From Imbricaverruca yamaguchii (lineage: Eukaryota > Arthropoda > Thecostraca > Neoverrucidae): a DNA stretch of 64,000 bases. Below are positions 3,001 through 57,100 of this stretch, one piece after another (the first letter of the stretch is position 1; each line of letters opens with the position of its first letter). The translations under genes and the position numbers were made by a program. The stretch covers positions 1,532,501-1,596,500 of the forward strand of contig JAOTOL010001553.1 in the NCBI GenBank assembly GCA_034440575.1, in the 5' to 3' direction. Below the pieces are notes generated by a model, which searched no databases, was not told the origin of the DNA, and saw only the letters and a list, made by a program, of their open reading frames with translations.

Positions 3001-6000
3001 ATGTTGCTGTATGTCAGTATTGTACAGAATAGGATGGTTTTAATGCGTCAGGTAGGACTTGCCGGCCATATAGTGGTGGTAGCCGTCTGGCGGTGGTCTG
3101 AGCGGCCAGGTCGTCGGCCTGTCGCTCGTGTCTTAGTCGTCAGGTCGCCACCACCGGGTGGGATGTGCTCCGCAGCCGTTGGATGTGCCTCTCATCTCAG
3201 TCCACGGATGCGACCCCTCAGGTTGTTCGTCTATCTCAGGCGGTGGTCTGGCTGCAGTTAACGTGGACGCATCGCCCTCCAGCCGTAACTGACACACTGT
3301 GACGCATGGTGCGCGCTCATCGGTGATCTCCGACCGCGACACCGCTCTGTCCCTGGCTGTGCCGTCTGACCGACGGCGGCGCCGTGTCAGGTCTGCGCAG
3401 CCCCGCACCCGAGCTGCGCACGCCGCTGCTGCGCTGTCTGCGCTCGCTGCTGCTGCAGCTGCCCGAGCGGGCCGACGACGTGCTGCGCGACCCGTCTGCC
3501 GTGCCGCTGCTGACGCAGAGCCTCAGCGGCCGGCTGGTGGACGACGAGTGTGCCACCACCATACTGGCCATACTGTGTCAGGTAGGCCACCGCTACCACC
3601 ATGCTGGCCATACTGTGTCAGGTAGGCCACCGCTACCACCATGCTGGCCATACTGTGTCAGGTAGGCCACTGCAGCCGCCATACTGGCCATACTGCGTCA
3701 GGTAGGCCACCGCCGCCACCACCACCATACTGGCCATACTGTGTCAGGTAGGTCACCGCTACCACCATGCTGGCTATACTGTGTCAGGTAGGCCACCCCC
3801 GCCACCACCACCATACTGGCCATACTGTGTCGGTAGGCCGCCGCCGCCGCCATGCTGGCAATACTCTGCCAGGTAGACCGTCGCCGCCATACTAGCCATA
3901 CTCTGCCATGTAGGTCGCCGCCGCCGCTGCCGTTCTGGCCATACTCTGCTAGGTAGGATGCCGCCGCCGCCATACCGGCCATACTCTTCCAGATAGGCCG
4001 TCGCCGCCGCCACCATACTGGCCATACTCTGTCAGGTAGACCGTCGCCGCCATACTGGTCATACTCTGCCATGTAGGTCGCCGCCGCCGCCGCCATACTG
4101 GCCATACTCTGCTAGGTAGGACGCCGCCGCCGCCATACCGGCCATACTCTCCCATGTAGGTCGCCGCCGCCATCGCCATACTGGTCATACTCTGCCAGGT
4201 AGGACGTCGCCGCCATACCCAGACGTGCTGTTCAGCTGTGGTATTCGGTCGGCAGTTGTGACACTGTTGTACGGGGTGTATTCTACCTGGGGTGACAATG
4301 GCGTGTTCATCAATCCTGATTGTTGGCTTATTGTCCCTTGTTAGTTAGTCATTTGGGCTTCAGGGCGCTTCGACCAGAATTGATCATTCACGCCCAATTT
4401 CTTTTGATGACTATGTCAAGCCCGTTTTGTCACTATTGTGGTTGTCCCTATCATGGTTGTCGCTATCCTGGTGGCCACTATTTTAGTGGTCACTTCTGGT
4501 AGTCACTTTTCCGATGGTTGGTTATCACCAATATGTTCAAACGTTCCTGGGTTCGTGCTCACCACAAGCCATTCATGTCCATATAACCAGATAAGTAAGT
4601 GTAGTGTGGATAAGGCCGTTGTCGCACCCCAAAGCCCACCAGTAGGTAGTCCAGTCAGCGCGTATCAAGTCAGGTGGATCAAGGTTGCTCATGCCGCAGA
4701 CTTACTACGCTGAGCCTGTGGACGTGCCGGTAGGCGAGTTGCCACGGCGCTGGTGGATTTACAGTGGGCGAGAGCTGGTGGGGTTGCGGTGCCGATCTAC
4801 CGGCCTCGGTGCCGGTGGATTGGCAGAGTAGCCACTGTGTCGGTATATTAGCAGAGTTGCCACTGTACCGGTATATTAGCAGAGTTGCCACTGTGCCGGT
4901 GTATTAGCAGAGTTGTCACTGTGCCGGTGTATTGGCAAAGTTGCCACTGTGCCGGTGTATTGACAGAGTTGTCACTGTGTCGGTATATTAGCAGAGTTGC
5001 CACTGTACCGGTATATTAGCAGATTTGCCACTGTGCCGGTGTATTAGCAGAGTTGTCACTGTGCCGGTGTATTGGCAAAGTTGCCACTGTGCCGGTGTAT
5101 TGACAGAGTTGTCACTGTGTCGGTATATTAGCAGAGTTGCCACTGTACCGGTGTATTAGCAGAGTTGCCACTGTGCCAGTGTATTGGCAGAGTTGCCACT
5201 GTGCCGGTGTATTGGCAGAGTTGCCACTGTGCCGGTGTATTAGCAGAGTTGCCACTGTGCCGGTGTATTGGCATAGTGTCCGCCGTGCCGGTGTATTGGC
5301 ATGGTGTCCGCCGGGCCGGTATATTGCCATAGTGTCTGCCGTGCCGGTGTATTGGCATAGTGTCCGCCGTGCCGGTGTATTGGCAGAGTGTCCGCCGTGC
5401 CGGTGTATTGGCAGAGTTGCCACTGTGCCGGTGTATTAGCAGAGTTGCCACTGTCCCGGTGTATTGTCATAGTGTCCGCCGTGCCGGTGTATTGGCATAG
5501 TGTCCGCCGTGCCGGTGTATTGGCATAGTGTCCGCCGTGCCGGTGTATTGGCAGAGTGTCCGCCGTGCCGGTGTATTGGCAGAGTGTCCGCCGTGCCGGT
5601 GTATTGGCATAGTGTCCGCCGTGCCGGTGTACTGCCATAGTGTCCGCCGGGCCGGTATATTGCCATAGTGTCCGCCGTGCCGGTGTATTGGCAGTGTCCG
5701 CCGGGCCGGTATATTGCCATAGTGTCCGCCGTGCCGGTGTATTGGCAGAGTGTCCGCCGTGCCGGTGTATTGGCAGAGTGTCCGCCGTGCCGGTGTATTG
5801 GCAGAGTGTCCGCCGTGCCGGTGTATTGGCAGAGTGTCCGCCGTGCCGGTGTATTGGCAGAGTGTCCGCCGTGCCGGTGTATTGGCAGAGTGTCCGCCGT
5901 GCCGGTGTATTGGCAGAGTGTCCGCCGTGCCGGTGTATTGGCAGAGTGTCCGCCGTGCCGGTGTATTGGCAGAGTGTCCGCCGTGCCGGTATGTTGGCAT

Positions 6001-9000
6001 AGTGTCCGCCGTGCCGGTATATTGGCATAGTGTCCGCCGTGCCGGTGTATTGGCAGAGTGTCCGCCGTGCCGGTGTATTGGCAGAGTGTCCGCCGTGCCG
6101 TGTACTGCCATAGTGTCGCGCCGTGTATTGTTGCCACTGTGCCGGTGTACTGCCACAGTGTCCGCCGTGCTGGTGTATTGGCAGAGTGTCCGCCGTGCCG
6201 GTGTATTGGCAGAGTGTCCGCCGTGCCGGTGTATTGGCAGTGTCCGCCGTGCCGGTGTACTGCCATAGTGTCCGCCGTGCCGGTGTATTGGCAGAGTTGC
6301 CACTGTGCCTGTGTATTGGCATAGTGTCCGCCGTGCCGGTGTATTGGCATAGTGTCCGCCGTGCCGGTGTATTGGCAGAGTGTCCGCCGTGCCGGTGTAT
6401 TGGCAGAGTGTCCGCCGTGCCGGTGTATTGGCAGAGTGTCCGCCGTGCCGGTGTATTGGCAGAGTGTCCGCCGTGCCGGTGTATTGGCAGAGTGTCCGCC
6501 GTGCCGGTGTATTGGCAGAGTGTCCGCCGTGCCGCTGTATTGGCAGAGTGTCCGCCGTGCCGGTGTATTGGCAGAGTGTCCGCCGTGCCGGTGTACTGCC
6601 ATAGTGTCCGCCGTGCCGGTGTATTGGCAGAGTGTCCGCCGTGCCGCAGAGCTCCCGCCACCAGGAGCTGCTGGCGGCCAACGGTGTGGTGGAAGCGTCG
6701 GCCGCGCTGCTGACCTCCGACACGGGCGCCGTCCGACTGCCCAGTCTGCGCCTGCTCGCCTCGCTCTGTCACAGGAACGCCGCCATCTCGGACAGACTCG
6801 CCCGCTGCACGTGCGTATTGAGAGGCCGAGCCCTGGCTGGCGGCTGGATTATGACCTAGGTCTGAGCTCCTAGTCTGGTCCCCTAATCTGGACCCCTAGT
6901 CTGGACCCCTAATATGAACCCATGGTATGAACCCCCAGTCTGAACCACTAGTCTGAAGCCCTAGTATTAATCCCTAGTCTGAAGTCCTAGTCTGAAGTCC
7001 TAGACTGAAGTCCTAGACTGAAGCCCTGGGTCAGAAGCCCCGGGTCAGAAGCCCCGGGTCAGAAGCCCCGGTCTAGACCCGAGCTAGGGTCTGAGTCAGA
7101 GTTCGTTGCATACGAACTTGTTGGGTAGGGCTTCGAAGTACTAGGTCTGTCCGTCAAAGTCGCCGACGGGGACGCTTCTACGTCCATTTATTTCATGCAA
7201 CATCCGTAGGCGAAAAATTCCTTGGTACAACTTCCGGTGTCGAGCAGTCTGCTACCGCTTGATCTGTTTCGAGGACCCCACGCGTATCACCGAACTATGA
7301 CTGCGTCTTTTTGTGTGTATTATGCCAAATTATTTTGAGCCATGTGTTCATTGTTTACTTGAAGCAAAACCACTATAAGGATAAGTCTGAAGAGTATCTC
7401 GTGCTAATTGGTATTCAAAAGAAGCAACCAGCAATGTTTAGTTGGCGTAGAAAATCATCTTAGTAAAATATGAATTCAGTATCTTGATGAGTTGGTATTA
7501 AAGACCGAGTCTGTGAAGTGGTAAATACCAACAGCATCTGTGGTGGATACGGTGGCTGGGCGCTGAATGACCAAACTTGGTCGATGCGCCATAAAACTCA
7601 ACTAACCAACCAACCAACCAATCAACCAACCAACCAACCAACCAACCAACCAACCAACCAACCAACCAACCAACCAACCAACCAACCAACCAACCAACCA
7701 ACCAACCAACCAACCAACCAACCAACCAACCAACCAAGGATGCGGTGGCCTCGGTTGAGGCATCGTCGTGGTCACATTAGATCGGTGGTGGCTGCTGCCG
7801 CTCGGCACGGTGTCGAATCACGTTGTTTGCGCGGTTGGGTTGCATATGATCCACCAACTCGGCTGCACCGGCTGGCTCTGTCTAAACTGGTGACCTGCTG
7901 ACCTGACTCATAAAGTCAATAGACGGGTCCATAGACGTGTTGACCTTGTCGATTTGACTTGATGGGCTAGTGCTGGTGACATGGGCAGCATGCTGAAAGG
8001 TTGCTGCAGCGTGGGAAAAGTGGTTCGCTGACCTGGAGTCGGAGAAAAAAAAATTGTATCGGAGCCCTCCAAGAAAAAGAAGATATTCCTGCATTGGAGT
8101 CGGAGAATAAAAAATGGCCTCCGACCCCATCCCCCCTAAAAAGAAACAGAAAGCTACTGGTGTCGGAGCCCAAAAAAGGATGATTGATAAAAAGCATACA
8201 AGCCGCTTACTTACAAGCATACTTACACCCCTTTACTGGACCCTAAGTCACTTCAATCACGCCCACTTAATTCACTCGCACTTACTAGGTTTTTCTCCGG
8301 AAAGCTCTCAAAACTTTGTCTCAACCCGAGTATATCCAACCAATAGAGACAAAGATCTTCGCACAAAGGGAAGGGGACAAAGCAGCGAGGCGAAACGCGC
8401 GGTCAAAGCGTGGTCGCTGTGTAAACATGACTGCAATATTTACACAATTTCAAGACCGCTGCTTGACCTCAATTCCTGTCACCTTTAATAGGAATTCATA
8501 CGTAAATACGGTGCTACCTTTTTTCTTCAGTTACATGGGAATCAATACACTAAAGATATATGTTCCTAATCATGAAATTACGGTGTCTTTATCCTAGATT
8601 AAAACATGAATCGGGCGAGACCGTCCCAATAATTTGTTAATTCTCCTACTCTAGTACGGATATTGTCCTGTCCTAACGGCGATGTATCCAAGGGTGGTCA
8701 AATGATGAAATGATATATTTTCGTAACTATTTTAAATGACGTCTAATTATGACCATAAATGGCCCGGAGAACGTTTAAACTCCGTACATGCACAGTTACT
8801 GCAGTTGCTGAAGTGATAAAACTACTATTCAGATGCTTTTCTCTTGATGGGTTACTGTTGTTTTGCGAATTGAGGTGGAATTCATACCAAAGTAACCCAA
8901 GGTCTTTTGCTTTTTTTAGCATTTACATGGCTCCCAAAAATAGGTCTTCTGCCATGAATGAAGTTCGCTAGCTGGTGCTATTTTATACATTTCAATTCGA

Positions 9001-12000
9001 AGTTGAATGCTCAATTTCGTGAAATTAACATAATTACTGAAAATGGTCTGAGATGTCCAGAATTACGTTCTCCGCTAGTCTCCAATTGGAATTCGGCTGG
9101 AGAACAGGACCTCGGGTCCGATATGCGAGTATTTGACGTCATTGTGCATATTTCGAGTTCCACTATTGTGGCAAGATATGGCAGCAATACGAGAGGTTTC
9201 GTAATGTAAATATTTTGGTGTAACGCCAGTATTTCCCGGAATTATGAAGAAGAATCGTGGCATATTCCAATCGTTCCTTCTGAAGAGTCATTTCGACAGA
9301 ATTCTGAATACATACGAAAACCCAATTCCTTATATCTTTGTTATTCAGAATGAGACGAGACTGGCGCAAGCCGAATGACGATTCATCTGTGGTTACAGAG
9401 TGATTGTGCTGGGCCGCCGTCCTGCCGGTGTGAAAATATCCTGGAGAGTAATAGGCTGAGGTAATAACTAGTTCCGAAATTTACATTATTTTGTTCTCTA
9501 TTATTTTTATGCTATGTCGATGCTTTTGTTTCGATCGGATTTGGGGGCACGTGCACACCAACGATTACCTGAGTACCCCCCCCCCACGAGTTCGGCCTTG
9601 ATTGGGGCTTAGACTGAGCCAGGACATAGTTTGTAGCTGTGCGATCCGTACGTATCTGATATAAACAAGGTCTCCACCACAAATGTGTGGGATTTTGCAG
9701 CAACATTTCCTTCATGTCATTTCCTTGCACCTTCAATATCAGTTCTTCCAGGCAAAATAAATATAGGTATAGCCAGAGTTGAATGTATTTATTCAAAGCA
9801 TATTTGCAGATTCATACACACATGCATAACATGCAATATGTTTGACACATGCACAATGCAATCCAAACAACTACCACAAACTTGTAGGTATTCTGATATA
9901 ACATGATATGCTTCCTGGGAAATTGACTGCAACCTGCATTTCATGCCTTATGACCTGCTATGCCATGCTCTTCTGTTCTGTTGTCCAGGCTTCTAATTTG
10001 TATGATGGACTGGAAACTGCAACTGGATTGCTGGAGCTGGACTGAGATCCTGGAAACAAAATGTCATCCATTATTGGCACGTTTCATTCGGAGAATAAGA
10101 AATTTCAACATTTGCAGTCACAATCCTGGAGAATAAAATGTCCTTAGGTCTCCATACTCCATGAGAGGCCTAAAATTCCCACCCTGGGTTGCTGTGTACC
10201 TGACCTGATCCGACCTGATCGGTAGGCTGGGTGGTCGGTCTGTACTTGACTGCTGACCTAACCTGACTGGGAGTTTTTTTTTTTTTTTGGTTGGGGGGGG
10301 GAGTCGTTCCGTGTCTGACATCACGATGCTGACGTCCCGTGACTAATTGTTTTCGGTGTGACTGCTGACCTGACCGGCAGGCTGGGCGGCTGCATCTTAC
10401 CTGACCGGACGGTGCTGATGTCCCAGGACCAGCCGTGTCCGGTGCCTGACCCGACCTGACCTGACCGACAGGCTGGGCGGCCGCACGGTACCTGACCTGC
10501 TGGCGGTGCTGACGTCTCGGGACCAGTTGTGTCCGGTGCTTGACCTGACCCGACCTGACCGACAGGCTGGGTGGCCGCACCGTGCCTGACCTGCTGACGG
10601 TGCTGACGTCCCGGGACCAGCCGTGCCCGGTACAGCTGGAGGCGGCCCGCTGTCTCACCTACATCCACCGGGCGGGAGCGGCCACCCTGCCGGCCGCCGA
10701 CCCGCGGCTCGTGTACCGCGCGCTACCCTGCCTGGTGCGCATGTGCGGCCCGTTCCAGTCGCTGGAGGAGCGCGTGCTGGCCGCCGACACCCTGGCCTAC
10801 CTCACAGAGGTCGACCTAGGTGAGACTGACAACACTGTCTAATAGCCGTGCCGTTATATTGGCCTGCAGCCTTTCTTTTTGATGAGTTTAGGAGGGATCC
10901 GTTGCGTATTCGTAAGGGGAGACTGGGGCATGTGCCATCCTCACACCTTTGAAGAGATATGACACCCTCGACTGGAGAGAAACTCGCTCTGAATGTACCC
11001 CTCCCGCTTGACGAGTTATATTCCACTCGATTGACTCCTCGGGATAGGTGCTCCCTCGCTGCCTCTGGAGAAATGGTGCCCCTGAAGGGGCGGTGTTTTT
11101 CATTGTTTGCTCATCTAGTTGTGAGCAGTATTTTGGTGAGATAATGGGGTCAAATTAAGTCGTGGAATGGTGAATTGTGACGTTTAAAGACATGTCGACC
11201 CACTACTCCTTTTTCCATTTGAGATGAACACTGTGCACGTGTTCAATAAGTTTCTGAAGATCACCAATAATCCTAACTTTCGCCACGAATTTAAGTGTGT
11301 CTTCATATGACGTGAGTGTACCTGATGTCATCGTAATCATAAAACAGATAGTTAATGGGCATGAATGGAGTGAAAGGAGACAACATGCAAAATTTGGTAT
11401 AGCCATAAGGCAACGTAGCCTACCATTGGATATAAAGTTAATTGGATCTCCACGTCTGTTCTCAGAAGCTAGGGATGAATATAGTAGAATTATGTGGAAG
11501 ACTGCAAAGTTCTTGATTTGAAATAAGCAATTAATTATCCTTTTTGTGCAGAATAGCGATTGAGACGCTCCGTGAAAGTGCCTCCTCCTAGTCTGCCAAG
11601 GTCTCCTGTCTGGTCTACAACTAAATATTTGAGTTCACTTCGAAGTCCGACTTTAACTGATCTAGACTGTGTTCCGTGGAATAGATGTCACGGTGTGATT
11701 TCAACTGGTTCGGAAGTGCATCGCGTTTGTTAACGTCAAGCTCGAAATTTGTTCGAAACTCACTTTGCTCGAAATGTTTGCTCCGATTGCATGCTCGGGT
11801 GACCATCCAGAACGTAGTCCTGTGCCAACCATAGAGGGAGACAGCCGCTCGGGGACGCGTCTCTTTCCCCGGATGGCGGCGTTAAGCCGATCTGATGCCT
11901 CGGATGGTGGGAGTTGGACCGAGAGTTCACATTGCCACGACACAACCGTCCGGCTCTCACTGCATGGGGCCGGGTGCCGGCAGCCAAGCGCAAGAGCGCG

Positions 12001-15000
12001 TGCTGCCACCCGAACCTGTGTTGCCACTCGAACCTGCATCGCCAGGACAGGCGAGCTGAGTGCAGACCGGTGCTCCGCGGATTGATCCGGCGGAACGACA
12101 GCCCAATCAGGTCTGCACAAGGATGACGATGACGAGACAGGGATGTCAGATTAGTGTGAACTCAAAGGTGTCGGCACTCAAAGGATGAAGTTGTTTGTTC
12201 AGGGTCTCAATCTGCTAAAGTGTCCCCCCGATAGCTTAGTTAGCTAGAACGCTGGCCTGCGCTGGTCTCCCCTGTCCAGATTCCCCTGTCGAGTCGTTTC
12301 TCGCGCTCGCATTTAGCCCTTGGCTGTGAGGGTCGGTTGGCAGCTGGCCCGATAAGCCCGGGGATGAACTAATGGGCTACCGTGTCGGTGGATTGATGGC
12401 ACGTTAAACTTCCGGTCAAAATTATGCCATTGAACTGAAATGCATGGATCTGGTGGTGGGGCCAGGGTTCACACAACAAACTCTGCTTAGCAATATACCT
12501 CGCTTCATAAAGCCACCCCAGAAAGAACTTGGATGGAATTTATTTAAAAATACATTATTACACTTTAAGTGGTACAGCTGTGCTGCGCTGTGGGTTAATG
12601 TCACGGCCCGTCGCGCTGCCGCCATGACCAGAGCGTGTTCGACTCGTCCTGATACGACTTCAGACCTGCAGCAAATCTGCTCCACCACTAGTCACGTGAC
12701 CAGAGCATGTCCGACCTGACCTGACCTGACACGACCTGAGCGTGTCCTCAGACCTGTAGCGGATCTGCTCCATCGCTGGCCACTTGAACAGAGTATGTCC
12801 GTCCTGGCCTGACCTGATCTGACCTGACACGACCTGAGCGCGTCCTCAGACCTCCAGCGGATCTGCTCCATCACCGACCACGTGACGGCGACGATGCGCG
12901 AGTACCTGCGCTACCAGCCGACCACGTCGCACCCCAAGACGCGCGCCCACCAGCGACGCATGGCCGGCGAGCTGAAGAAGGCCGCCTTCAGGGTGGGTGG
13001 CCAGTTGGTTGGTTATTGTTTTGCGACACGTCGACCAGTCATGTAGCGTCGCCAATCTCTCACGCCGATTGGCCGCGGGAGAAGAGTAGCGACAGGTGAG
13101 ACCCGAACCCACAATCTTTTGATCGTGAGATGGGCAATGGTGGGTGGTGTCGGCGCCAGCTGTGGCGTGCCCTCACGGCGACCTGGCCCGTCTCTTGTGG
13201 GTGGTCTCTGAGAGGGAAGGGTATTACCGGCTGTGGAACTGGCACGCCGAGTTTCCGAGTGAGAGGGCGCTCGGGCCAAATTCCAACTCGAGAGGTTTCA
13301 GCACGAATTTCCTACCTCGGATGCCTTGGATGAGCGTCCGCTGTGTAGCCTAGCCTAGGGTTTTAGCTCTTGCACTCTCCTTGATGGATATTAACTTTTT
13401 TTAACATGAAGCCAAAAGAAAGTGAGCAAACTAAGGAGACGAGTCTTTCTCCTTGAGTTCATGTCCGGGTCTCGTCTAACAAGATTTCAATGTCGGACCA
13501 CCACCATCGACTCTAATGGACCAAAATCCTTGCGTTTGGATTGACTAGAGATACGCACCTTCCCCTCGTTGGCGTGCTAGAAGAGGTCTTGGTTCTTGTT
13601 GGGAGGCGCTTGCATCTGCACATAACGGTTCGGCAGTACGGCACCGATAAATTCAAAGGGGACATAGGTGGCTTCACATCACTTCCGTGTATCACGATGA
13701 AGAGGGTGCTCTGGGTTGGACTGCCTTTCTGACGCTATGCGCGTCTACCATTTACCTTTCCAATGCACGCAGCAAGCACGAGTAGAATGTAAGCCTATTG
13801 CAATCGCATTATCATCATTGATCTACAGTTGCCGACATGTGTATCAGCCAGACGGCGTGCAGGACAGTCCGGACCTGCTGTCGGTATTAGCTACAGTTGC
13901 CGAGTACCCCCTCCCCCAGAGACGAAGCTGCCGCGGGGTGCCATCGCCGCCCACCTGACGCCGCACCCACTCCCCAGGTGTACGCCTCGCTGGGCTCCAA
14001 CGACGAGGAGATCAGGAAGCGGATCATCGAGACGGTCGGGCTGATGTCCGACCTGACGGCGGCCGTCGAGGGCGGCTGCGAGGGCCTGCAGCTGGCGGCG
14101 CTGCGCTGTCTGCTGTCGCTCTCCAGATCCGTACAGACGCTGCGCACCGTCATGCAGGTGCGCGCCGACGTCACTCGGTCATCGTCAGTCAGACGTCAGT
14201 CAGACGTCAGTCAGACGTCAGTCAGACGTCAGTCAGACGTCAGTCAGACGTCACTCGACGTCAGTCAGACGTCAGTTCGTCAGACGCCATTTCACCGTCA
14301 GTCAATCGTTCACCAGTCAAGGTTGTGCGTGGAAGGTGGCTCATAACACTAAGCTGGACTGGAAAAGTTAGCGCATTGGAAGCTCAGTGGTGGAGCTGAT
14401 CGTCTGGCGCGCCAGAGGTACGGGACTCGATTCGCCGCGATGCCCGCCCTTCCTGCCGGGGTGAGATGCAGGCGACGCCATGCTGTCTCAGCTGCTGAGT
14501 GCGTCGTAAAGTCGCAATCCAACGATTCAATTGTTCATCACGGTCATCGTAGAATCATCAATCAATCAATCAATTAATCAATGAAGGGAAGATAACATAG
14601 AAGGGAAAACAGAGACTGTAGTAGACGTTGCTGGGTCCGTTATGTACCCTCGTCTTTTCGGCTGTCTTTCCCACTCGACCTCCTTCCTCTCGCTCATCTT
14701 CATCTCTAGCGTGTTGCCGATCACCGGAGAAGAATCTGTACGTTAGTACGGATTCTTAGCTAACGATGTCGGCACGGAAATGATTGTCTTTAGGCGTAAA
14801 AACGCGACTGACCGACACTGGCAGTCAGAGTTGTGGGTGGTGGGGACACGTGGTGCAGGCAGTGTGTCACTGGCCATATAACGTCATCTGATCACGTGAC
14901 GGACCACGCGATATGGCAGCAGGCGATGGGTCTGTATAGCTATATGACGCCATTTAATCACTTGTCGCCAGGACCACGCGGTGTTGCAGCAGATGATCAG

Positions 15001-18000
15001 TATGTGTGGTTGTATCAAGTTCACAAAGTGTTATGGCTTAATAAGAGCCACAGGGGCAATCTGGAAATGATACGAGAAAAGTCCATGCTCACACCCAGAT
15101 CAATCCACTGTCTCAAGTAGACGTCATTTGATCACTTGTCGCCAGACCACGGCGGCGTGACAGCAGGTGATGAATATGTGTAGTCATATGACGTCATTTG
15201 ATCACTTTTCGCCAGGATCACGTGGTATGGTATGGCCTGTATGGTCATATGACTTCATTTGGTCACTCGTTGCCGGGACCACGTGGTGTGGCATGGTATG
15301 GCAGCAGATGATGAATCTGTGTGGTTATTTGACATCATTTGATCACTTGTCGCTGGGACCACGTGGTATGGCAGCAGATTATGAATCTGTGTGGTTATAT
15401 GACGTCATCTAATCACTTTTCAGGATCACTCAGTGTGGCAGCAGGTGATGAGTCTGGCACAGCACAGTGAGTCCAGCACGGATGTCCGGATAGCTGCCTC
15501 GTCGGCGCTCTGCAATCTCCTGCTCGAGTTCTCGCCGTCAAAAGTGGGTGGTAGCGCAAATGCACAATGATGAGTGCAGAAGCGTATGTACAATTGTCGG
15601 AGTTAAACCTCCGGAATCTTCCAGAAGTGAAATGTTCACCGTCCGGATTTCGGGGATGGAAAATTACTTGAGTATCGTTGCAACGAAAATTATAGTACCA
15701 GCCGAAGGTTAAATTACAACTTTGTGGGGGTGGTTGTCTACATTCCGCGTTCCATTTTCTGAATTGAGTCAGCTTGCCAGCACTCACTTTACGTTAAAAC
15801 TCTGAGGTAAACTCGTGCATTTTAAAATTTCGAATCCAAATGCTGACCTGTGTTGTCAGTGGGATGTAGGCTGTAGCATGTAGGCTGTCCTCAATTTGAA
15901 TAAGTACACCTTGAGCTCTGGTGTGGCTTAAGATGCTGCAACGCTGAATACTCCGATGGCATATCAGTTTGGTGATTCAGAGAACCGTACTGACGGCAGT
16001 CTGTGTCTTTGGAACGGTACTGACATGTGTATTTAAAACAGTAATGGCAACAACCGGTGTTTTAGAGAAATACTTACGGCCGTCTGTGTCCAAGAGCCGC
16101 TGGTGTGTCGGTCTGGTGCTACAGAGAACAGCACTAACGGCCGTCGGTGTCCAGGAGCCGCTGGTGTGTCGGTCTGGTGCTACAGGGAACAGCACCGGCG
16201 ACTGTCTGTGTCCAGGAGCCGCTGGTGTGTCGGTCTGGTGCTACAGGGAACAGCACCGGCGACTGTCTGTGTCCAGGAGCCGCTGGTGTGTGTGTTAGTA
16301 TGGTGCTACAGATAACAGCACTGGCGACTGTCTGTCCAGGAGCTGCTGGTGTGTCAGTCTGGTGCTACAGAGAACAGCACTGAGGACTGTCTGTGTCCAG
16401 GAGCTGCTGGTGTGTCAGTCTGGTGCTACAGAGAACAGCACTGACGACTGTCTGTGTCCAGGAGCCGCTGGTGTGTCAGTCTGGTGCTACAGAGAACAGC
16501 ACTGACGACTGTCTGTGTCCAGGAGCTGCTGGTGTGTCAGTCTGGTGCTACAGAGAACAGCACTGACGACTGTCCGTGTCCAGGAGCCGCTGGTGTGTCA
16601 GTCTGGTGCTACAGAGAACAGCACTAACGGCAGTCTGCGTCCAGGAGCCGCTGGTGTGTCAGTCTGGTGCTACAGAGAACGGCACTGACGGCAGTCTGCG
16701 TCCAGGAACCGCTGGTGTGTCAGTCTGGTGCTACAGAGAACAGCACTAACGGCAGTCTGCGTCCAGGAGCCGCTGGTGTGTCAGTCTGGTGCTACAGAGA
16801 ACAGCACTGACGGCTGTCTGTGTCCAGGAGCCGCTGGTGTGTCAGTCTGGTGCTACAGAGAACAGCACTGACGGCTGTCTGTGTCCAGGAGCCGCTGGTG
16901 CAGAACGGAGGCGTCGACTTGCTGTGTGACCTTACGCGCAGCGACGACCCCAACATCAGACTGAATGGCATCTGGGGACTCATGGTGAGCAGCCGGAGAT
17001 GGTGGTGAGCAGCGCGACTCATTTTCGGCAGCTGAGTCCTGTGGTCAGCGGCACTCGTGAGCAGCTGAAGCTCGTAGTGAACATCTGGGGCTCTGGTGAG
17101 CGGCTGGGACTGGTGGTGAGCAGCGAGGACTCGTGGTGAGCAAATGGCACTGGTGGTGACTGGCGGGCCGCATCGAGCGACGGGATTTGATTAACAGCTG
17201 GTATTGTACAGGAGTCGCCGACTCTTGCTGAGCATCTGCTGACTCTAGGTTTGGCAAAATGCTAGACAAGCAAGTCTGTGCTCGTCAGTGCCATGATAAT
17301 TTGGTTAGCACTGGCTCCATGAGGGTATAATTTTACAATGTACTTCGTATAGTAATTTTCCACATTCTTATGAGACTTAGGACAGCGTAAGCTAAAATAT
17401 GGTGGAACAACAGAAAGTCTTTGTCGCTCTAATTACTGGGCATGTATGTATACCATCAAGAGTGCACTGGAGGTAAAAAATCCGAACAACTTTTGCAGCA
17501 TATCTTGTACGCTGTGGATGCACCACTTAAATTGGCAGCTGTTTTCCATCATCACAGGGATTTTTTATGTGGAGCGGAATTGAAATTAAAGGCAACGTTT
17601 ACGTCAAAGTGATTCATGCTGTTGCACAAGGTGTATTGGAGAATATTGAGTTCGGTGTGCTTGTCAATGTTAATTGGCCAAAAAAAATACACAAAACCAA
17701 GCAACAGCTGAACAATGCTGAAACATTAGCAACTTTCATCACTGTGTGGGCCAAAAGTAGCTATGCCCAGCTGGATGAAGACAAGGGTTTTCAGCTTGTT
17801 AAAATATCGCAGGAGCATACACTTCCCAGCCCTGGCTCATGGTAGCTAACCATCTGAAGGTGCTTCATTACCAACTGAAGTCTTGCTGTACAGAGGTCGG
17901 ATGTGTGTTTGTTTTGAGAGACGTCAGTTAATGAGTGCTTCTGCTTCACACGCTTCCAGGAGGGCATTAGGTTTTGAGTGTTATGGATGCTTGCGATTTG

Positions 18001-21000
18001 AATCCTACGTATTGTTGACCTAGCATATTGCTACTGATTTGAGCTGACCTTTTCATCTACTACTGCCAATAATCTGAGCCCATTCTTCTGACCCATTTGT
18101 CTTGGCATGAGCTGACCCTGCCCACCTCACACCTAAGTTTACATCCGTGACAACACGATAACGGTATATTTATCAGCTATGCCTAAGCGTAGCAACGACA
18201 ACGCTATCATGGCAACGTGGAAAAGAAATCGCCTAGCGCATGTACGCTCTGGGACCTATATTTTTTCATCAAAATGTAACTTCCCGGTCTTCGGGGCCCC
18301 AATCCTCAACATTCGTTCGCCTCTACTCGAAGGAAAATTTTGACTGCACTACTGTCGGCTCCATGTGCAGCTGCTTCAGCAGATGCAATCAACACCGGCA
18401 ACTTCATCTGACGCTGAGTACAGAATGCAGCGCTGGGTAGATTCACATGCCGTCAGAACTTGCTGCCAGAACCTTCCATCAGAGCGTGCGGTCAGAACAT
18501 GTCAGAACCTGCCGTCAGAGCATGCCGTCAGAACTTGCCATCAAAATATGCCGTCAGAACCTCCCATCAGAATCTTCCATAAGAGCATCTCGTCAGAACG
18601 TGGCGTCAAAACCTGCCATCAGAACCTGCAATCAGAACATGCCACCAGAACATGCCGTCCGCACATGTCCTGCCGTGCTCAACCGCCCCAACACCAGCAA
18701 CCTCGGCTCGCACTCTGTAGAGACCGCAGCGCCGTTTTTATTTTCACGTGAGTCGTGCGCGTGCCGCCAGAACATGGCGTACCAGGCGGACCACAAGACC
18801 AAGCGACTCATCCTGCGGCGACTGGGCACCAACGAGCTGTTCCGGCTGCTCTCCGACCCCAGCACGGCCATCCTGATGAAGACGCTCGGCCTGCTGCGCA
18901 ACCTGCTCACCAAGCCGCACGTCGACCAGTTCATGGACGACGGTCACGGCAGTCAGGTGATGCAGGTCAGTCGGGGTCAGGTGGGCTGTACACCAGTCCA
19001 TGGACGACGGTCACGGCAGTCAGGTGATGCAGGTCAGTCGGGGTCAGGTGGGCTGTACATCAGTCCATGGACGACGGTCACGGCAGTCAGGTGATGCAGG
19101 TCAGTCGGGGTCAGGTGGGCTGTACACCAGTCCATAGACGACAGTCACGGCAGGTCAGTCGGGGTCAGGTGGGCTGTACATCAGTCCATGGACGACGGTC
19201 ACGGCAGGTCAGGTGGGCTGTACTGTTCATGGACGACGGTCACGGCAGTCAGGTGATGCAGGTCAGTCGGGGTCAGGTGGCCTGTACACCAGTCCATGGA
19301 CGACGGTCACGGCAGGTCAGGTGGGCTGTACTGTTCATGGACGACGGTCACGGCAGGTCAGGTGATGCAGGTCAGTCGTGGTCAGGTGGCCTGTACACTA
19401 GTTCATGGACGACGGTTAATGCAGCCGGGTAATGCAGTCAGTCGGGGTCAGGTGGGTTAAATGTGAATTAATTTCAATGTATGTAAAGTGATGTCCTTCG
19501 CTGACGAATTACAACATGCGGCCCTGTATTTGGTCTGAGGAGCGGAAAAGTATTGGTGTACTTTGCAACAACAGCATTCGGCATAGTGTGAAGTCACCCA
19601 GGGTACTGGGTGACTGAGCGCGCCGAAACTCCCGTTGGCGCCGACTCGGACGGAGTGACGCCGGAGAAGACACTGCCGTGACCTCAACCACTTGCCAGGC
19701 GATCGTGCTCACTCTGGAGGGCAACCATTCGTTCGAGGTCAAGGAGCAGGCCATCTGCATCATGGCAAACATCGCCGATGGCTCCAAGTCGAAGGAGTTC
19801 ATCATGGGCAACGAGGACGTGCTAAAGAAGCTGCAGAACTACATGGTGAGTGGATGCTGGAATGAGTGGCTGGTGGTGGGATGTTGGCTTGGTGCAGCTT
19901 TTGTCAGTGTCGCAGCAGTTGGATTATAATTTTGTCATACATGCACGCACTTTCGGAGGAATTGTACAGTAAGATGTGCTGGGTGGATGTATTTAATGAA
20001 TGGAAGTATTTCACGATCATCCAAGGCGAGATAGAGAGATAAGGTCAGCTCAAGAAATATTATGGAGTGCTTTATCGAATATGTTGTGCTACTACTGAAT
20101 CTACAAGCTTATCCGTTGGATCTAACAGATCCAACCATGACGAGCTAAACGGGGACCTCTGGTCAAGAATGATGCACCAATTTTCGCCTCGGAGACCATG
20201 ATGCAGTGTCCTAAAATTACTTCACCATTAACTGTGTGAATGAAGAAAGAAGTTGCTTGGGAATAGTGAAAGATTGGAAGAAAATAAAGGATCTCCACTT
20301 AAGGATTAAAAAAGCAGAATACCTTTCACATCAGTCACGAGCATTTTACATTATTTAACAGTTGTGATGATGACTGCCCACACATCATGTGGCAAAATGG
20401 TAAAAACCTAAGACAAGGATGAAATAGCACAATTCCATTAACTGTGAATTTCCAGGCCACATTGTCAAGTATTTTACACTGCCATGATGACCAGTGAAGA
20501 AAGCTCCCATTGACTTAACCTTACCAGTGCCCATCAAGTTCTAGCAAAGCAGAGCAACGAATTGTTCCATCTCCTAATCTCGGCTGAGCACTCGCCTATG
20601 TTAACCCCTCCCAGCCTATCTTCACCTGACAATGGAGACCGGTGTGTCCTTTGACCCGGTCCGACCTCGGTCTTTCAAAATGTATTCTGCGTAGAATGGT
20701 CCCAAACGAAAATATCAAGGTCCATAATGACCTGGAAGCTTATTGGGCGGTATAGCAGGCAAAAGACAGAAGATGATGTTGACATGGGCGCTGTATGGCA
20801 TATGCAGTCGATGCACTCCAAAATTACAATAAATGGGCGCTGTATGACCAACGCAGTCGATGCGCCCGAAAGCCCAAATAACCAACCAAAATTACAATAA
20901 CTAAGATTACCTTGACGTTTTCGCACTGCATCCTTCGGCAGCGTTATGATAGCATATATGTCCGAAATAGGGTAGGGCAAACAGACAACCGTTGCAATAG

Positions 21001-22353: not shown

Positions 22354-22367
22354 ATGCCGCCCCCGAG

Positions 22368-22430
22368 CATGGGACGCGCTGCGTGACCGACGCAGTCGAT
22401 GCGCCCCTAAACCCCAGTTAAAGCCACACG
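22368..22430 (+). repeat. Hairpin/SINE-tail copy in the ARMC8 3'UTR
   Basis: GGGACGCGCTGCGTGACCGA CGCAGTCGATGCGCCCCTAA begins about 17 nt after the ARMC8 stop. Only the SINE tail is present. Confidence 0.7.
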
Positions 22431-23631: not shown

Positions 23632-23760
23632 TAAGTCACGCGGCGTCGCCAATCGCTCACGCAGATTGGTCGTGGCCAAAGAGCAGTGACAGGCGGGACC
23701 CGAACTCGCAACCTTTCGATTGCGAGACAGACGCCTTCCCGCTGGGCCACTCTTCCTCGA
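23632..23760 (-). repeat. tRNA-derived SINE, family A, antisense
   Basis: Reverse complement of the family A body: GTGACAGGCGGGACCCGAAC carries the B box, with CCAATCGCTCACGCAGATTG. Confidence 0.7.
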
Positions 23761-29400: not shown

Positions 29401-31492
29401 TAAGCCTGACCTGCGATGACACACGAGCCTGCCACGTCGCACTGTGTCTAAGCCTGACCTGCGATGCCACACGAGCCTGCCACGTCGCACTGTGTCTAAG
29501 CCTAACCTGCGATGACACACGAGCTTGCCACGTCGCTGCAGGTGACGTTGCCTCCTGCCGACTGACAGGTGAGACAGTCGCCGTTGTAGGTGGCCAGCTC
29601 GATCGGCTCGCTCCAGTTGACGCCGTTGTAGGACATCTGGAGCACACAACGTACAGTGAAAAGGTGATGAAGTTTCACGCACGTCGCAGCTGCTTCTTAT
29701 CTGTGTCGAGGCCTTCGCCACTTGATGTATGAGTCGTTGACTAAGTTGAAAAGATATAGAAAAGAAAGTTGGCGGATGGCGTCAGATACAAGGACAAACG
29801 TTCCGAAGTTTAGTTTACTTTACTGACTCCTCCATGAGACAATTTATACTTTGAGTTGGGCAAGTGCTGGCAAGAAAGTTGATTTTGCCATGGTGCTGGC
29901 ATTAGCCCACTTGTCGAAGAGCACCCAGCTTTACTATGCGGGCAAGGAGGCACTTGCCCACACCGTCTCTTACGCCGGCTGCAGCGTGTTAGTAGGAATT
30001 AGTAGCATGAGCTCCAGTGGGGGAGAACGGGCAAGATTATATTACCTACTCACAAAGGTACAAAACCGTCCCTGACAGGAGCAACATTACTGAGGAAATG
30101 TGCTAGGCTCCTGCCTGCACGTGAATTTCCAATATTGTGAATGAGAGGAATAGATTCTCCAAGTATTTTGAAAACTTAGCATCACGCCTATGTATAGCTA
30201 GGTGCGTTGTTTGTGTGGCTTTACCATGTACCAGCTGACGCTATTTTGAGGCGCCTACCTGTCACCGTGGCAGGAAAGCCGGGCATCGCGGGAAATCAAG
30301 CCCTGTGCATCTAGTATTCCAGACGCTCAGCTTAGCTAGTGAACTACCGACGCCCGGAAATAATGAACCTAGAAGCAATACTACTAACCCTGAACCATAT
30401 TGCAATCGACGAAGCCCACGTACGTAGGGCCATTTTTGCTCCATAAAATCAAAAGGCGATCTGTTCTGGAGATCTGTTACCCTGAACCTCGTTAGTGAAG
30501 GAGCACGTGTACACAATTTACCTGCACTGTCCAGAGCAGTACTTCAATCGAGTACCGCAGCTCCCGCGACCTGGCGGCGGCTGGCAAGCGACACTCTACT
30601 TCCGATCTCGACCGGTAGATAGCAGGTGCGACAAACGGCGCCGGTTCGTTTTCCAGCTGGACTCTGCAGCGCAGGTCGACCGACGGCCGGAAGTGACGTG
30701 CCAGAACCGGCACTGAGCCGCACCAGGAGCTGGCCAGGTCACAGAGGCCAGATCGACCCACCGAGGTCACCGACGGAGGGTCGCCTGCAATAGCGGGAGC
30801 GTGGTCGGCATACGCTTCATCGTACAGAAGAGTGACATCGCACCAATGAACCAGCCATATGGGGCAGTAAAAACATACTGGATACTGAAAGTATGCTGCA
30901 TCGTTATTGGGTGCAATCAGTGCAATCGGGCATGGATAGTTCGAGTAGGATGATGGAAAGCATGCAAACTGGTGGGGTGGGGTGGGGTGGAGCAAACTGT
31001 GCCTGCTTCTTTTATTGCGCAACTCTTGGCCTGATGCCAGGTGACCACCGAGCAACTCCTGGATATCGCATTCCGCTCGGAATAAGATGGAGCAGGTTGT
31101 GGATTGGCAAGGTGCCTTTACGAACGTCCTAGAACGTGGGGCGCACTTTGTCTGGGGAACGACCGCTATACCAAGACCCGGATAAAAATGAGTGCAAGAT
31201 ACACATGAGTAAGCCATAGCCGTAGCAACGTATTTTTATATCCCTTCAACAAACGGCTATGGAAGAACACACGCTAGATTTCTTTATTCCTTTACTGGAT
31301 ATATTACATGAACGATTTCTGGTTCAGAATAGTCCGACAGCCAGAAATGGTTGTTGGGAAGTACGGAGAGCGATCACGTGACAGCGTCGGATTTATCACT
31401 GTCTGGTACAGTCAACGAGATAATGAGAACTTCCATCTGAGTGCAGACACAAAAACGATGGCCTGCCTCCCCGTACGCCTCGCAAAGTCGCA

Positions 31493-31538
<46 letters not shown>

Positions 31539-36844: not shown

Positions 36845-36882
<38 letters not shown>

Positions 36883-36894
36883 CGACGAGAGAGA

Positions 36895-36958
<64 letters not shown>

Positions 36959-42900: not shown

Positions 42901-45900
42901 CAACATGTTTCAGGCGTGTTCACTAGGAGCAAGGACTAGAGGCAGCTGCAGGGAGCATAAACCAACAACACCGATCAGAACAGGGTCTGGGACAATGATC
43001 CAAACAAATGCGTTGCAGGCAGACAAAACAGACAAGGCTGTAGGACAACCGCATGTAGATCTAGTAAAAATCAACATAAACGATGTCATCACTGAATGAT
43101 GTAGGATAAGGAGTAGGACCAGGAGCGACATACAAGAATTACGCACGGTGTCCATAGGTAATAAGCAGCGATAGCTATTGGGAGCACGGTCCACAGATCA
43201 GGACCGGCGACCAGCAACACAGCAAATACACATCAGCAGAACCGGCGACCAGCAGCATAACCAATACACATCAGCAGGGACGGGGACCAGCAACACAGCC
43301 AACACACATCAGCAGGACCGGCGACCAGCAACACAGCCAATACACATCAGCAGAACCGGCGACCAACAGCATAACCAATACACATCAGCAGGACCGGCGA
43401 CCAGCAACACAGCCAATGCACATCAGCAGGACCGGGGACCAGCAACACAGCCAACACAGATCAGCAGGGCCGGCGACCAGCAATACAGCCAACACACATC
43501 AGCAGGACCGGGGACCAGCAACACAGCCAACACACATCAGCAGGACCGGGACCAGCAACACAGCCAATACACATCAGCAGAAACGCATATCATTTGTTTA
43601 TTGGGTGGCATAAGACGCACTTTATGTACAACCACGGCCACTGGCGCCGCCCACATTGCTTCTCCGATGAGCCGCGGGATTGGGAAATGTTCCGGGTGGT
43701 GCGAGTGCCGAGCCTGGGACCTTGTCGTCCAAAGCTGAACCCTAAGCCACTCGGCCACCCCCGCCGCTAGGAACACAGATTTCAGACGGCACCCACCAGC
43801 CAGTCGGTGTCGGCGCGCGTCTCCAGCAGCCTGACGGGGGACGTCCCGTGGTGTGCAGAGGTCAGCGTGAGTCGGGGTCGGCCATTGCACGCCTGCAGAG
43901 TGGCCAGGTCGCCACCGTCCTGCACTGCCACGGCACACACACAGAGCGCTTCCGGCTCGTCCGGAGTGCATTGTCGTGTCCGGATCTCCACCTGTCGAGT
44001 CACGACACACGTTTGTCAACATCGGATACGGATACGTGTGTGTCGGAGAAAAATCCCGGATTCCACCCGCCTGGTCACGACACATGTCAACATAATACGG
44101 GTGTGTGTCGGTGAAGACTCCGGATCTCCACCCTGTCGTCGACACATGTCAACATCGGATACGGATACGTGTGTGTCGGTGGAGACTCCGGATCTCCACC
44201 CGTCTGGTCACGACACATGTCAACATCAGACACGGTTACATGTGTGTCGGTGAAGACTCCGGATCTCCACCCGTCTGGTCACGACACATGTCAACATCAG
44301 ACACGGGTACATGTGTGTCGGTGGAGACTCCGGATCTCCCCGCATGGTCCACATGTCAACATCAGACACGGTTACATGTGTGTCGGTGGAGACTCCGGAT
44401 CTCCACCCGTCTGGTCACGGCACATGTCAACATCAGACACGGGTACATGTGTGTCGGTGAAGACTCCGGATCTCCACCCGTCTGGTCACGACACATGTCA
44501 ACATCAGACACGGGTACGTGTGTGTCGGTGAAGACTCCGGATCTCCACCCGTCTGGTCACGACACATGTCAACATCAGACACGGGTACATGTGTGTCGGT
44601 GAAGACTCCGGATCTCCACCCGTCTGGTCACGACACATGTCAACATCAGACACGGGTACATGTGTGTCGGTGAAGACTCCGGATCTCCACCCGTCTGGTC
44701 ACGACACATGTCAACATCAGACACGGGTACATGTGTGTCGGTGAAGACTCCGGATCTCCACCCGTCTGGTCACGACACATGTCAACATCAGACACGGGTA
44801 CATGTGTGTCGGTGAAGACTCCGGATCTCCACCCGTCTGGTCACGACACATGTCAACATCAGACACGGGTACATGTGTGTCGGTGGAGACTCCGGATCTC
44901 CACCCGTCTGGTCACGACACATGTCAACATCAGACACGGGTACGTGTGTGTCGGTGAAGACTCCGGATCTCCACCCGTCTGGTCACGACACATGTCAACA
45001 TCAGACACGGGTACGTGTGTGTCGGGACTCCGGATCTCCACCCGTCGGGTCACGGCACATGTCAACATCAGACACGGGTACAGTGTGTCGGTGAAGACTC
45101 GGATCTCCACCCGTCTGGTCACGGCACATGTCAACATCAGACACGGGTACATGTGTGTCGGTGAAGACTCCGGATCTCCACCCGTCGGCCCAAAAAATTA
45201 AAAATAAAAACGGGTACATGTTGTCGGTGAAGACTCGTCCACCCGTCGGTCACGACACATGTCAACATCAGACACGGGTACGTGTGTGTCGGTGAAGACT
45301 CCGGATCTCCACCCGTCGGGTCACGGCACATGTCAACATCAGACACGGGTACGTGTGTGTCGGTGAAGACTCCGGATCTCCACCCGTCGGGTCACGACAC
45401 ATGTCAACATCAGACACGGGTACATGTGTGTCGGTGGAGACTCCGGATCTCCACCCGTCTGGTCACGGCACATGTCAACATCAGACACGGGTACATGTGT
45501 GTCGGTGGAGACTCCGGATCTCCACCCGTCTGGTCACGGCATAGAGTGTGTTCGGGGGACTCCCTTTTCCCCCCTTTTACACATGTCAACATCAGACACG
45601 GTTACATGTGTGTCGGTGAAGATCGGGCTGTGTGGAGGCATTTGTGTTTGCAAGATAGAGGTGTGGAGATGTGTGCTGGCGATGGTCAGGTTGTGAAAAT
45701 TTGCGTTTGTAAGATCAGGGTGCAGATAGTATCGATGAGCATGAGACCGTGGAAATATATGTACCTGTGAAGATCAGAGTGCAGACATATGTGAAGATGA
45801 GCGTAGAAATATGTGCTTCGATGAAGAATGGAGTGTGGGGATAAGTGGGTTGGTGACGTTTAGGGCATGGAAACCTGTGTAGCCATGACAACCACAATAT

Positions 45901-51079: not shown

Positions 51080-51152
<73 letters not shown>

Positions 51153-54100: not shown

Positions 54101-57100
54101 TCCACCAGCTAGCGGCAGTGCAGCGGCCAGCCGCCCGCATACGTGAGCCACGCTGCAAAAGCCGGATCTGCATCCCATCTCGGCGCCCATCGCTCTCGCC
54201 GCCACCTCCAGAAGGAAAATGATCGAAGAGTGGCGGGTTTTGCGTCTTTAGGGGGCAGCCACTACGACGTTCATGCTGTACCGATCTGGGAGCTAGATGT
54301 TGCATGACAGAGGCTTGTCAGGTTACCGGTTAGCCGAGGGCACTGGGGGTCATGGCCGTGGTCTGATGGCAGTGGTCTGATGGCAGTTCATGTGAGAGGG
54401 GAAGCCCTCTCACATGAACCACTCGTGTTTTGCAGAAGCCTGCTTTTTTCCAGAATGACTTCAGCGTGAAAGGCAGTGGTATTGCACCAGCTTTGTAGGC
54501 AGTGTGGTGTTGTAAGCAGAGTGGCACGTTAAAAAAATGCACGGCCATAATAAAACTACGCCCATGCCCACCGGCCGCGAACGTGTACGCCCATGCTTCG
54601 TCGGCCGTTCTACAACGGCTAATGCATGCAACACGAGAACCACACTTCCTGACGACTGGACCGCAACCGGGCTGGTGCATGCAGGCCCCGCCCACCGCCG
54701 ACAACCACATCGGACTGACCTGCACCTGGACGCCAGCGGGCTGGTAATGTTTCCAGCCCTGGTCTGGTGTGTCGACCACCACATGGGACTGACCTGCACC
54801 TGGACGCCAGCGGGCTGGTAATGTTTCCAGCCCTGGTCTGGTGTGTCGACCACCTTCAGACCGAGCCAGGCGGCCGGCGGTCTCCTCGAGGCGCTCGTCT
54901 GCGGCACGACACAATACAGGTGACGTCGTCGGCAGGTGACGTCATCGATACCCCGGTGTGACGTCACTGTGCGCATTACTTCGAGCATGCGCGCGATGGT
55001 GAGAGCGCCATTCCGACGCCTGAACGACGACTGGAAGGGAGACAGCTGATGCGTCATGGCGCGCCACGCAGCTCGCCTAACAGTTGTGCTGTTGACTGTA
55101 GTTCGCGAGCACTCTGAGGGAGCTTAAGAGCAGCTCGATAGTAGTCCAAATGCGGTATGACAGCAACCCGGTAGTGGTGTCTGATGGTAGCGGTGTGTGG
55201 TGGTAGTGGTGTCTGATGGTAGTGGTGTCTGATGGTAGTGGTGTCTGATGGTAGTGATGCCTGGTGGTAGTGATGTCTGATGGTAGTGGTCTGATGACAA
55301 TGGTCTGATGACAATGGTCTGATTACAGTGGTCTGGTGATAGTGGCCTGATAACAGTAGTCTGATGATATTTGTCTGATGATAGTGGTCTGATGGGAGTG
55401 GTCTGATGGCAGTGGTCTGATGGCAGTAGTCTGGTGGCAGTGGTTTGGTGGCAGTGGCTTGGTGGGAGTGGTTTGGTGGGAGTGGTCTGATGGCCGTGGT
55501 CTGATGGCAGTGGTCTGATGGCAGTGGTCTGATGGCAGTGGTCTGGTGGGAGTGGTTTGGTGGGAGTGGTCTGATGGCAGTGGTCTGGTGGCAGTAGTCT
55601 GGTGGCAGTGGTTTGGTGGGAGTAGTCTGATGGCCGTGGTCTGGTGGCAGTAGCATGATGGCAGTAGTCTAATGTAAGTGGTCTAATGTCAGTGGTCTGA
55701 TGATAATGGTCTGATGACAGTGATCTGAAGGCAATGGTCTGATGACAGTGGCATGTGTGGAATGGAAGCCAGAAAGCCAGAAAGTCGTTTGGAACGTTAA
55801 AATTCATGTTGCCAACGGAACGAGTTAGTGCCACAAAGTGGAATGAGCCATGTAGTCATGAGAGAAGCTTGCTGTTGCAGTTGTGACAGTTGGTGTTTTA
55901 GCCGCGTCACGGCAATATTACACTTCCCACCCTTGTCTGATTGTGGTCTGAGGGTGGTGACACGGTGGTCCGAAGCCGATAGTAATATGGAGGAAGTCGG
56001 AGGCTTCCGAACTACGAGGATGGCCGAGAGCAATCTGGAGTGGTCGTGGGATAATATGTGGCTAGCTCGCAGGCTGTTTCAGGATAATCTGTGGGTAGTT
56101 CGTAATTGGCTTTGGAGTAATTCTGTGGTAGCCTGCAGGTAGACTAAGGGCAGTCGGTGGTTAATATGAGGGCGGTCTTGCGGTAATCTGTGGGTGGTCC
56201 GTAGATAGCTTCGGGATAATCTGTCGGCAGTTCGTAATTGAGACGATGGTAATATGTGGGTATTCTGCGGGTAGCCGTAGAGCGGCCTGTGGGTGTTCCG
56301 AGGACTGTCGGTGCTCCGTAGGTAGTTTGATGGCAATGTGTGCCCAGTCGGAGTGGCCTGCGGTAGATTGTGGCCATTGGTCGGCAGTATGTCGGTGGTC
56401 GGCGGGCCACACGACTATAGCGGACAGCCGCGACGCTCGGCGTGCCTGTCCATTAAACCATGACGACCGCCGCCGCTTGGCAACGCGCTACAGGCGCAGC
56501 ACGCGATGCGGACGTGCACCAGTCGGGTCGGCGTACAATGGCAATGTCACGCCGCACTTGGTCAGATTAACGGAGCATTGCCATGCCACCGTTTGCTGCC
56601 ATGTGAGCCGAAGTTCATTAGTGGGTCGGGGCTGCATGGCCTCACCTGCAGTGGACCCATGTGAACATGGGCAGCACCTGATCTGTCTGTGTGACGGCGG
56701 AGCCAGCGGGACAGAACACATGACCCTCCTTCTCCGACCTTGTTTTTCAGTGATGCGGCTAGTCCTGGTGACTTAATATGTCCCACTACGGTGCTAGCCA
56801 ACGGTTGTGGCTGGAATGTTGTTAGCCTAGCTCGGAGTGCCGAGCGGTGGAGCCAGCACACATTGCCACTGAGGTCGCAACTAATACATCGATAGGTTTC
56901 ATTAAAACTTCTGCCATTACAGTTGAACTTATGAGAATAATTTCCGTCCCGTTGCGATGTACTGACACTGGATACATTATTAGTGATCTCTGCTCAACAT
57001 CTCATAGACTGCTTCACAGCTAACGTCGCACGTTCAAGTTAGATTCTAGATGTGTGCCGCTTTTGACCATTCACATAAAGAACTTTTATTTTAGAGTCTC

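Follow-up and report, generated by a model that had tools for sequence, protein, structure and literature searches.

Splice-junction minisatellites of the amphioxus mirage kind in genes of the barnacle Imbricaverruca yamaguchii

The window analyzed here, the whole 64-kb stretch at C1320:1532501-1596500 within the 767-Mb assembly of the barnacle Imbricaverruca yamaguchii, carries two genes with tandem arrays at their exon edges, ARMC8 on the plus strand and a second, predicted gene on the minus strand. ARMC8 was located by tblastn with human ARMC8 as the query, and its exons 2 to 13 (E2-E13, 1677-21512) were then rebuilt. The rebuilt product of 622 amino acids matches human ARMC8 at 46% over its full length with few gaps; its best database match is ARMC8 of Pollicipes pollicipes (86%, full coverage), followed by that of Amphibalanus amphitrite (75%). 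Because the product aligns lengthwise to the human, Pollicipes, and Amphibalanus proteins, the exon edges used here are the coding ones. The second gene (about 54.9 to 26.3 kb) was assembled from reading frames, so that its exons are predictions, and the exon reading at 47.6-47.8 kb is uncertain. It likely carries EGF-type exons. Its earlier description as VWDE-like could not be confirmed, since Pfam gave EGF matches alone, below the curated cut-offs, in two of nine pieces, and two X-padded protein searches with this gene returned no match. A search against Rfam also gave no match. Listed tandem arrays, including microsatellites, total about 17 kb of the window, and the G+C content (GC) is 66% in ARMC8 exons and 48% in non-array ARMC8 introns.

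Each splice junction was represented by a 40-mer (20 exon and 20 intron bases) that was aligned to its own intron, with 200 shuffles and the other junctions serving as controls. The scores of the ARMC8 junctions were bimodal, with 15 of 24 at a background of 8 to 12 and nine at 16 to 40, namely the exon 4 donor, the acceptors of exons 5, 6, 7, and 9, and both sides of exons 10 and 11. Eight of these nine beat every control, and the exon 5 acceptor (score of 18) merely tied the best shuffle; there, the match is confined to intron bases -20 to -3 and ends three bases short of the exon. At the other eight, of the 22 intron-bounded ARMC8 junctions, the alignments cover exon and intron bases together, with the copies in the adjoining intron. 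The same nine junctions had been listed as array-bearing in the first-pass annotation, which stands for eight of them, whereas exon 5 just abuts an array.

The ARMC8 arrays, all described on the plus strand beside the rebuilt exons, differ in unit and extent. At exon 4 (3391..3581), a 40-bp array (3552..4218) derives from the donor junction, with 30 bp of exon and about 10 bp of intron in the unit, and 14 of 15 decoys keep the GT. The 28-bp array at 4809..6646 abuts the acceptor of exon 5 (6650..6810), where the match involves intronic bases alone and a junction origin is not established. The acceptor junction of exon 6 (10566..10819) is repeated in a 94-bp array (10367..10631) that extends 66 bp into the exon, with diverged copies back to 10188, and that of exon 7 (12850..12992) in a 98-bp array (12660..12885) including 36 bp of exon, with copies back to 12625. 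Six degenerate copies of about 60 bp (14876..15384), absent from the Tandem Repeats Finder (TRF) list, repeat the acceptor junction of exon 9 (15424..15543), and AG is kept in two of five. Exon 10 (16889..16984) has a 61-bp array of its acceptor junction (16082..16900; about 49 intron and 12 exon bases; AG kept in 12 of 13 decoys) and three degenerate copies of its donor junction (17050..17155). At exon 11 (18771..18965), a 13-bp array (18445..18667) resembles the acceptor junction and is non-contiguous with it, the copies sitting about 110 bp away, and a 67-bp array (18925..19456) derives from the donor junction (41 exon and 26 intron bases), with GT kept in all six aligned decoys and copies that are mostly identical. 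Across arrays, the median identity of copies to the functional copy was 79 to 100% over the aligned part, and the copies differ from one another in most arrays.

Of the 12 junctions predicted for the second gene, 3 matched their own array (scores of 36, 27, and 36), in agreement with the three arrayed exons claimed for it. On the minus strand, these are a two-copy array of 74 bp (54699..54854) from the donor junction of the predicted exon 54794-54898, a 71-bp array (43979..45538) from the acceptor junction of the predicted exon 43797-43991, in which AG is kept in 1 of 21 copies, and a 48-bp array (28875..29536) from the donor junction of the predicted exon 29507-29636, in which GT is kept in all 13. 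A further array in this gene, of 24 bp and 41 copies (25336-26331), starts at most 10 bp past the predicted stop codon (26340), at a coding edge rather than a splice site; its score of 17 was the same as the highest among 200 shuffles.

Where the units contain exon sequence, the encoded residues, such as EPLV, are conserved in Pollicipes and in part in human. Copying therefore ran from exon to intron, and the exons did not grow from intronic arrays. A single spreading family was considered and rejected because every ARMC8 unit bears bases of its own exon; the exception is a set of short shared motifs. At least 6 of 231 unit pairs outscored the best of 5 × 231 shuffles, and the five pairs inspected are gappy alignments sharing motifs of the CTGACC/AGGTCAG type. 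Short CTGACC or CCTGAC runs also lie upstream of several acceptors (ARMC8 exons 6, 7, and 13) and resemble a branchpoint motif. In non-array sequence, TGACCT is 2.2 times as frequent as a Markov-1 model predicts.

Outside the window, importin-alpha and beta-catenin loci were located through a Pfam Arm search of the same genome, regardless of arrays, and covered in 23 stretches; the core stretches follow the Pfam matches, and the flanking catenin stretches were added once an array had come to light in one of the two. These loci took the place of a pre-registered set of genes (CLTC, PPP2R1A, VCP, EEF2, and RUVBL1). The stretches L009-L012, L014, and L016 showed no match to two queries, and the extensions L017-L019 stand outside the counts. 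The sample comprises two beta-catenin genes (L013/L020/L021 and L015/L022/L023) and five importin-alpha genes, including L005/L006 and L007/L008, with 20 resolved importin introns and 16 resolved catenin introns; 11 unresolved introns (7 of 27 and 4 of 20) were dropped. The spliced aligner recovered 9 of the 11 true ARMC8 introns, missing those flanking exon 5; hand-defined ARMC8 exons were used for the counts. Scores of at least 16 were found at 10 of 40 importin-alpha and 8 of 32 beta-catenin junctions (18 of 72 over the seven genes). Pooled with ARMC8, the 94 junctions divide into 26 that are copied with exon and intron bases, 1 intron-only match, and 67 at background, with spanning copies in seven of eight genes; a few of the acceptors chosen may be incorrect, such as CTNNB_1339 16633, a poor site with no paralog partner that is counted among the 26. 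Donors and acceptors contributed equally to the spanning junctions (13 of 47 each). The importin gene KPNA_B scored at 0 of 10 junctions and has hardly any arrays.

The paralogs differ in the presence of arrays. At the ...DAATK donor of beta-catenin, about ten 59-bp copies are present on contig C1339 and none were found on C1262, with 97% identity over 66 aligned junction bases. Similarly, importin-alpha gene D is copied at the ...WALG donor, the ...KDPQ donor, and the VQT acceptor, where gene E is at background (22 versus 7, 38 versus 10, and 24 versus 11, respectively). The LINYQ, SSPVES, and NQRNK arrays are common to the beta-catenin pair; the NQRNK donor array differs in length between the two copies and is short and degenerate on C1339. 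Several other paralog pairs were ambiguous, with scores of 13 to 20 or a partner site lacking GT/AG, and were left out. Such presence and absence between paralogs may reflect gain or loss of arrays, and these paralogous genes are convenient for dating array turnover. The own-exon bases in each unit, the occurrence in seven of eight genes, and the arrays that one paralog has and its partner lacks support the repeated independent origin that had been proposed from ARMC8 and the second gene.

Whether junctions are copied more often than other positions depends on the null. In the position null, 32.4% of intronic positions matched their own neighborhood compared with 27 of 94 junctions, showing no excess (P = 0.80); in ARMC8 alone, the corresponding values were 28 to 33% of noncoding positions and 9 of 24 junctions. 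The comparison of match rates with random positions that the first-pass annotation had suggested thus places junctions no higher than random intronic ones. This null is inflated by array interiors because a junction can lie only in the founder copy. In the founder null, arrays were collapsed to one unit and the founders were placed at random; 16 of 51 arrays spanned a junction versus 5.0 expected (3.2-fold, P = 5e-6). For ARMC8 alone, founder runs that used hand-set units in one pooled region, and that the later founder nulls supersede, gave 5 of 13 versus 0.8 expected, 5 versus 1.2 with the whole footprint (up to 65 bp of exon overlap, P = 0.004), and, when GC was matched across the collapsed gene, 7 of 13 versus 1.7 under a loose definition (P = 1e-4) and 5 of 13 under a strict one (P = 0.011).

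We consider it likely that the arrays are minisatellites of the mirage type known from amphioxus, produced by GC-biased tandem duplication in a minisatellite-rich genome and tolerated at exon edges. A short segment, mostly of about 30 to 100 bp, would be tandemly duplicated and then expanded, which this genome appears to do often and preferentially in GC-rich sequence, and slippage or replication repair would be the copying event. Copies wholly within a coding exon would be removed by selection, and duplications internal to an intron would be neutral. When the segment lies across an exon edge, the additional copies would land on the intron side and leave the exon and the original splice site intact; the array would be spliced out with the intron and hence persist, presumably under normal splicing. 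Edge duplications would thus be tolerated because their extra copies fall in the intron and are spliced out. Consistent with these steps, the 35 purely intronic arrays prefer GC-rich sequence (beta of 5.9, confidence interval [CI] of 3.2 to 8.8), and 8 of 116 exon-interior ARMC8 positions match their surroundings compared with 28 to 33% of noncoding positions, as purging predicts. The exon share of the unit was not distinguishable from uniform (Kolmogorov-Smirnov P = 0.42 in a small sample of n = 16; P = 0.87 for n = 9), and no anchoring of breakpoints at GT/AG was detectable among the 16.

Several observations weigh against this reading. After correction for GC, with the preference fitted on the purely intronic arrays, the founder null still gave 16 of 51 versus 8.2 expected (1.9-fold, P = 0.003), and with the upper CI limit of the GC preference, 16 of 51 versus 10.1 (1.6-fold, P = 0.024); the excess left after correction makes some junction-linked bias possible. 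The low matching inside exons may reflect sequence constraint rather than purging of arrays. In addition, only 3.53% repeats are reported for the related barnacle Capitulum mitella, and the richness in arrays may therefore depend on lineage or method. Outside the window, the GC-corrected excess was weaker (11 versus 6.2, P = 0.03; versus 7.7 at the upper CI limit, P = 0.12). Matching each array for GC within its intron gave 11 of 30 versus 8.4 expected, no significant excess (P = 0.14); this run used the best-scoring TRF periods, some of which are multiples of the real unit, and was superseded later. Such matching is also too conservative, since a founder that spans a junction owes its GC to the exon. 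GC bias and tolerance explain much, perhaps most, of the pattern, with a modest residual of about 1.6- to 1.9-fold over few arrays.

The same residual bears on the alternative that splice junctions are true hot spots, at which R-loops, co-transcriptional breaks, or branchpoint or donor motifs raise the rate of tandem duplication. The founder excess speaks for this alternative both before and after GC correction (16 of 51 versus 5.0 and versus 8.2), as do the GC-matched ARMC8 counts, loose and strict, and the CTGACC/AGGTCAG-like motifs that recur in several units. If splice signals were the trigger, however, breakpoints should cluster and donors and acceptors should differ, and neither was seen. 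The GC skew of 14 ARMC8 arrays is of mixed sign (-0.29 to +0.42), the junction match rate equals that of random intronic positions, and significance is lost with within-intron GC matching. We therefore do not favor the splice-signal or R-loop mechanism that had been put forward, and we regard hot spots as unlikely. The broader proposal, that barnacle junctions are duplication hot spots beyond GC and selective tolerance, so that a large share of the minisatellites of this genome are junction-born and gene architecture feeds minisatellite evolution, appears similarly doubtful. As for junctions as special seeds, the match rate and the within-intron GC match speak against the idea, and the founder nulls (3.2-, 1.9-, and 1.6-fold), alone among these tests, weakly favor it.

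Another alternative is that the arrays mark the ends of introns born from exon-internal AGGT duplications. This mechanism is established elsewhere (PMC3443670) and has been proposed for amphioxus mirages (PMC3087553), and of the 22 introns that contain a junction-derived copy, 4 have one at both ends. However, 18 of the 22 are one-ended, and over 47 introns the two 40-mers of an intron, donor and acceptor (mean score of 6.68, maximum of 11), were no more alike than cross pairs (mean of 6.66, maximum of 16). The four both-ended introns scored 4 to 9, and ARMC8 alone agrees. Arrays are also present in one paralog and lacking in the other at shared intron positions. Since the two ends of an intron resemble each other no more than unrelated ends do, these 47 introns give no support to birth by duplication, and we consider it very unlikely.

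The arrays also place candidate splice sites beside the functional ones. GT or AG is kept in 61 of 86 aligned copies, and five further copies are unaligned at the dinucleotide. The idea that every array forms a row of decoy sites thus applies to these 61 copies and fails at the 43.99-kb acceptor (1 of 21) and at exon 9 (2 of 5). The homogenized unit without AG at 43979-45538 indicates that decoys can be disarmed during array expansion. From the continuous protein alignment across the junctions, we infer that the exon-proximal site is the one used in ARMC8; the statement that the exon-adjacent copy is always functional is close to tautological, as it holds wherever an array spares the exon. Retention of GT/AG would suit decoys kept by selection, for example for splicing regulation or protection of the functional site. 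Against this, AG is missing in 20 of 21 copies at the 43.99-kb acceptor and in three of five at exon 9, and near-identical paralog junctions lack arrays. Moreover, use of an intact ARMC8 decoy would shift the frame or add a stop in 44 of 46 cases, and the two harmless decoys lie in the non-contiguous exon 11 acceptor array. Selection for decoys thus deserves very little credence. An assembly artefact is likewise very unlikely, since, although tandem arrays are error-prone in assemblies and the arrays are known here from the assembly, the copies differ in most arrays (medians of 79 to 100% identity), the 26 junctions lie on seven contigs, and three arrays are common to paralogs on separate contigs.

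Two other repeats were observed in the window. A 12-bp GAGAGCGACAGC array of about 90 copies (58884-59960) is open in several frames on both strands. On the minus strand, a GC-rich open frame borders at its 3' end on an in-frame array of 48 bp (34387-34901 and 34910-35354), and a Pfam search with this frame gave no match.

Junction arrays are real and common in the genes sampled, and they are of a kind known from amphioxus, here in a new phylum. No report of junction arrays in barnacles was found in the open-licence literature, and the genome papers of Capitulum mitella and Sacculina mention tandem repeats and, in the parts available, not junctions. The first-pass annotation had stated that no system of this kind was described, which is incorrect. 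According to the amphioxus accounts, mirages are intron-exon boundaries repeated in tandem in the genes for Adh3 (units of 10-72 bp as cited), globin (150-160 bp), and PGBD5 (60 and 108 bp), with TnC also cited among mirage genes (PMC3087553, PMC3902484). In these accounts, many but not all copies keep AG/GT, the mRNA is apparently normal, and a role in intron gain is proposed (PMC3087553, PMC3902484). Like mirages, the barnacle units hold exon bases, the position of the splice dinucleotide, and intron bases (26 of 94 junctions and 3 of 12 in the second gene, not exon 5), the arrays occur at either intron end (13 of the 47 donors and as many of the 47 acceptors), each derives from its own junction, and unit lengths differ between genes. 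The copy number of mirages is described as differing between haplotypes, whereas in the barnacle a difference between paralogs alone was seen (about 10 copies versus none found). Mirages are said not to disturb splicing; the barnacle arrays are known from DNA alone, with a continuous ARMC8 protein alignment. The cited accounts concern individual amphioxus genes, whereas in the barnacle 26 of 94 junctions were counted in eight genes, with paralogs differing in presence.

Thus, a curiosity of a few lancelet genes is now known from an unrelated phylum, where about one in four sampled junctions shows it, and the paralog pairs reveal array turnover beside nearly fixed coding sequence. The arrays offer many natural tests of how the spliceosome settles on one of as many as fifteen similar sites, and they supply ample material for modeling intron gain and sliding. 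They are also a warning for annotation, since the spliced aligner joined ARMC8 exon 4 to a point within the array of exon 4 itself. The arrays resemble intron gain by tandem genomic duplication (the Rogers model; PMC3443670, see also PMC4974935), in which an exon segment with AGGT is tandemly duplicated and the coding sequence is preserved by splicing. Unlike in that model, the barnacle duplication straddles an existing junction and expands to many copies, with no new intron shown. In unit length and GC bias, the arrays are similar to ordinary GC-rich intronic minisatellites, and of the 51 arrays in those introns, 35 span no junction; unlike those minisatellites, the junction arrays have a founder segment that contains the exon edge.

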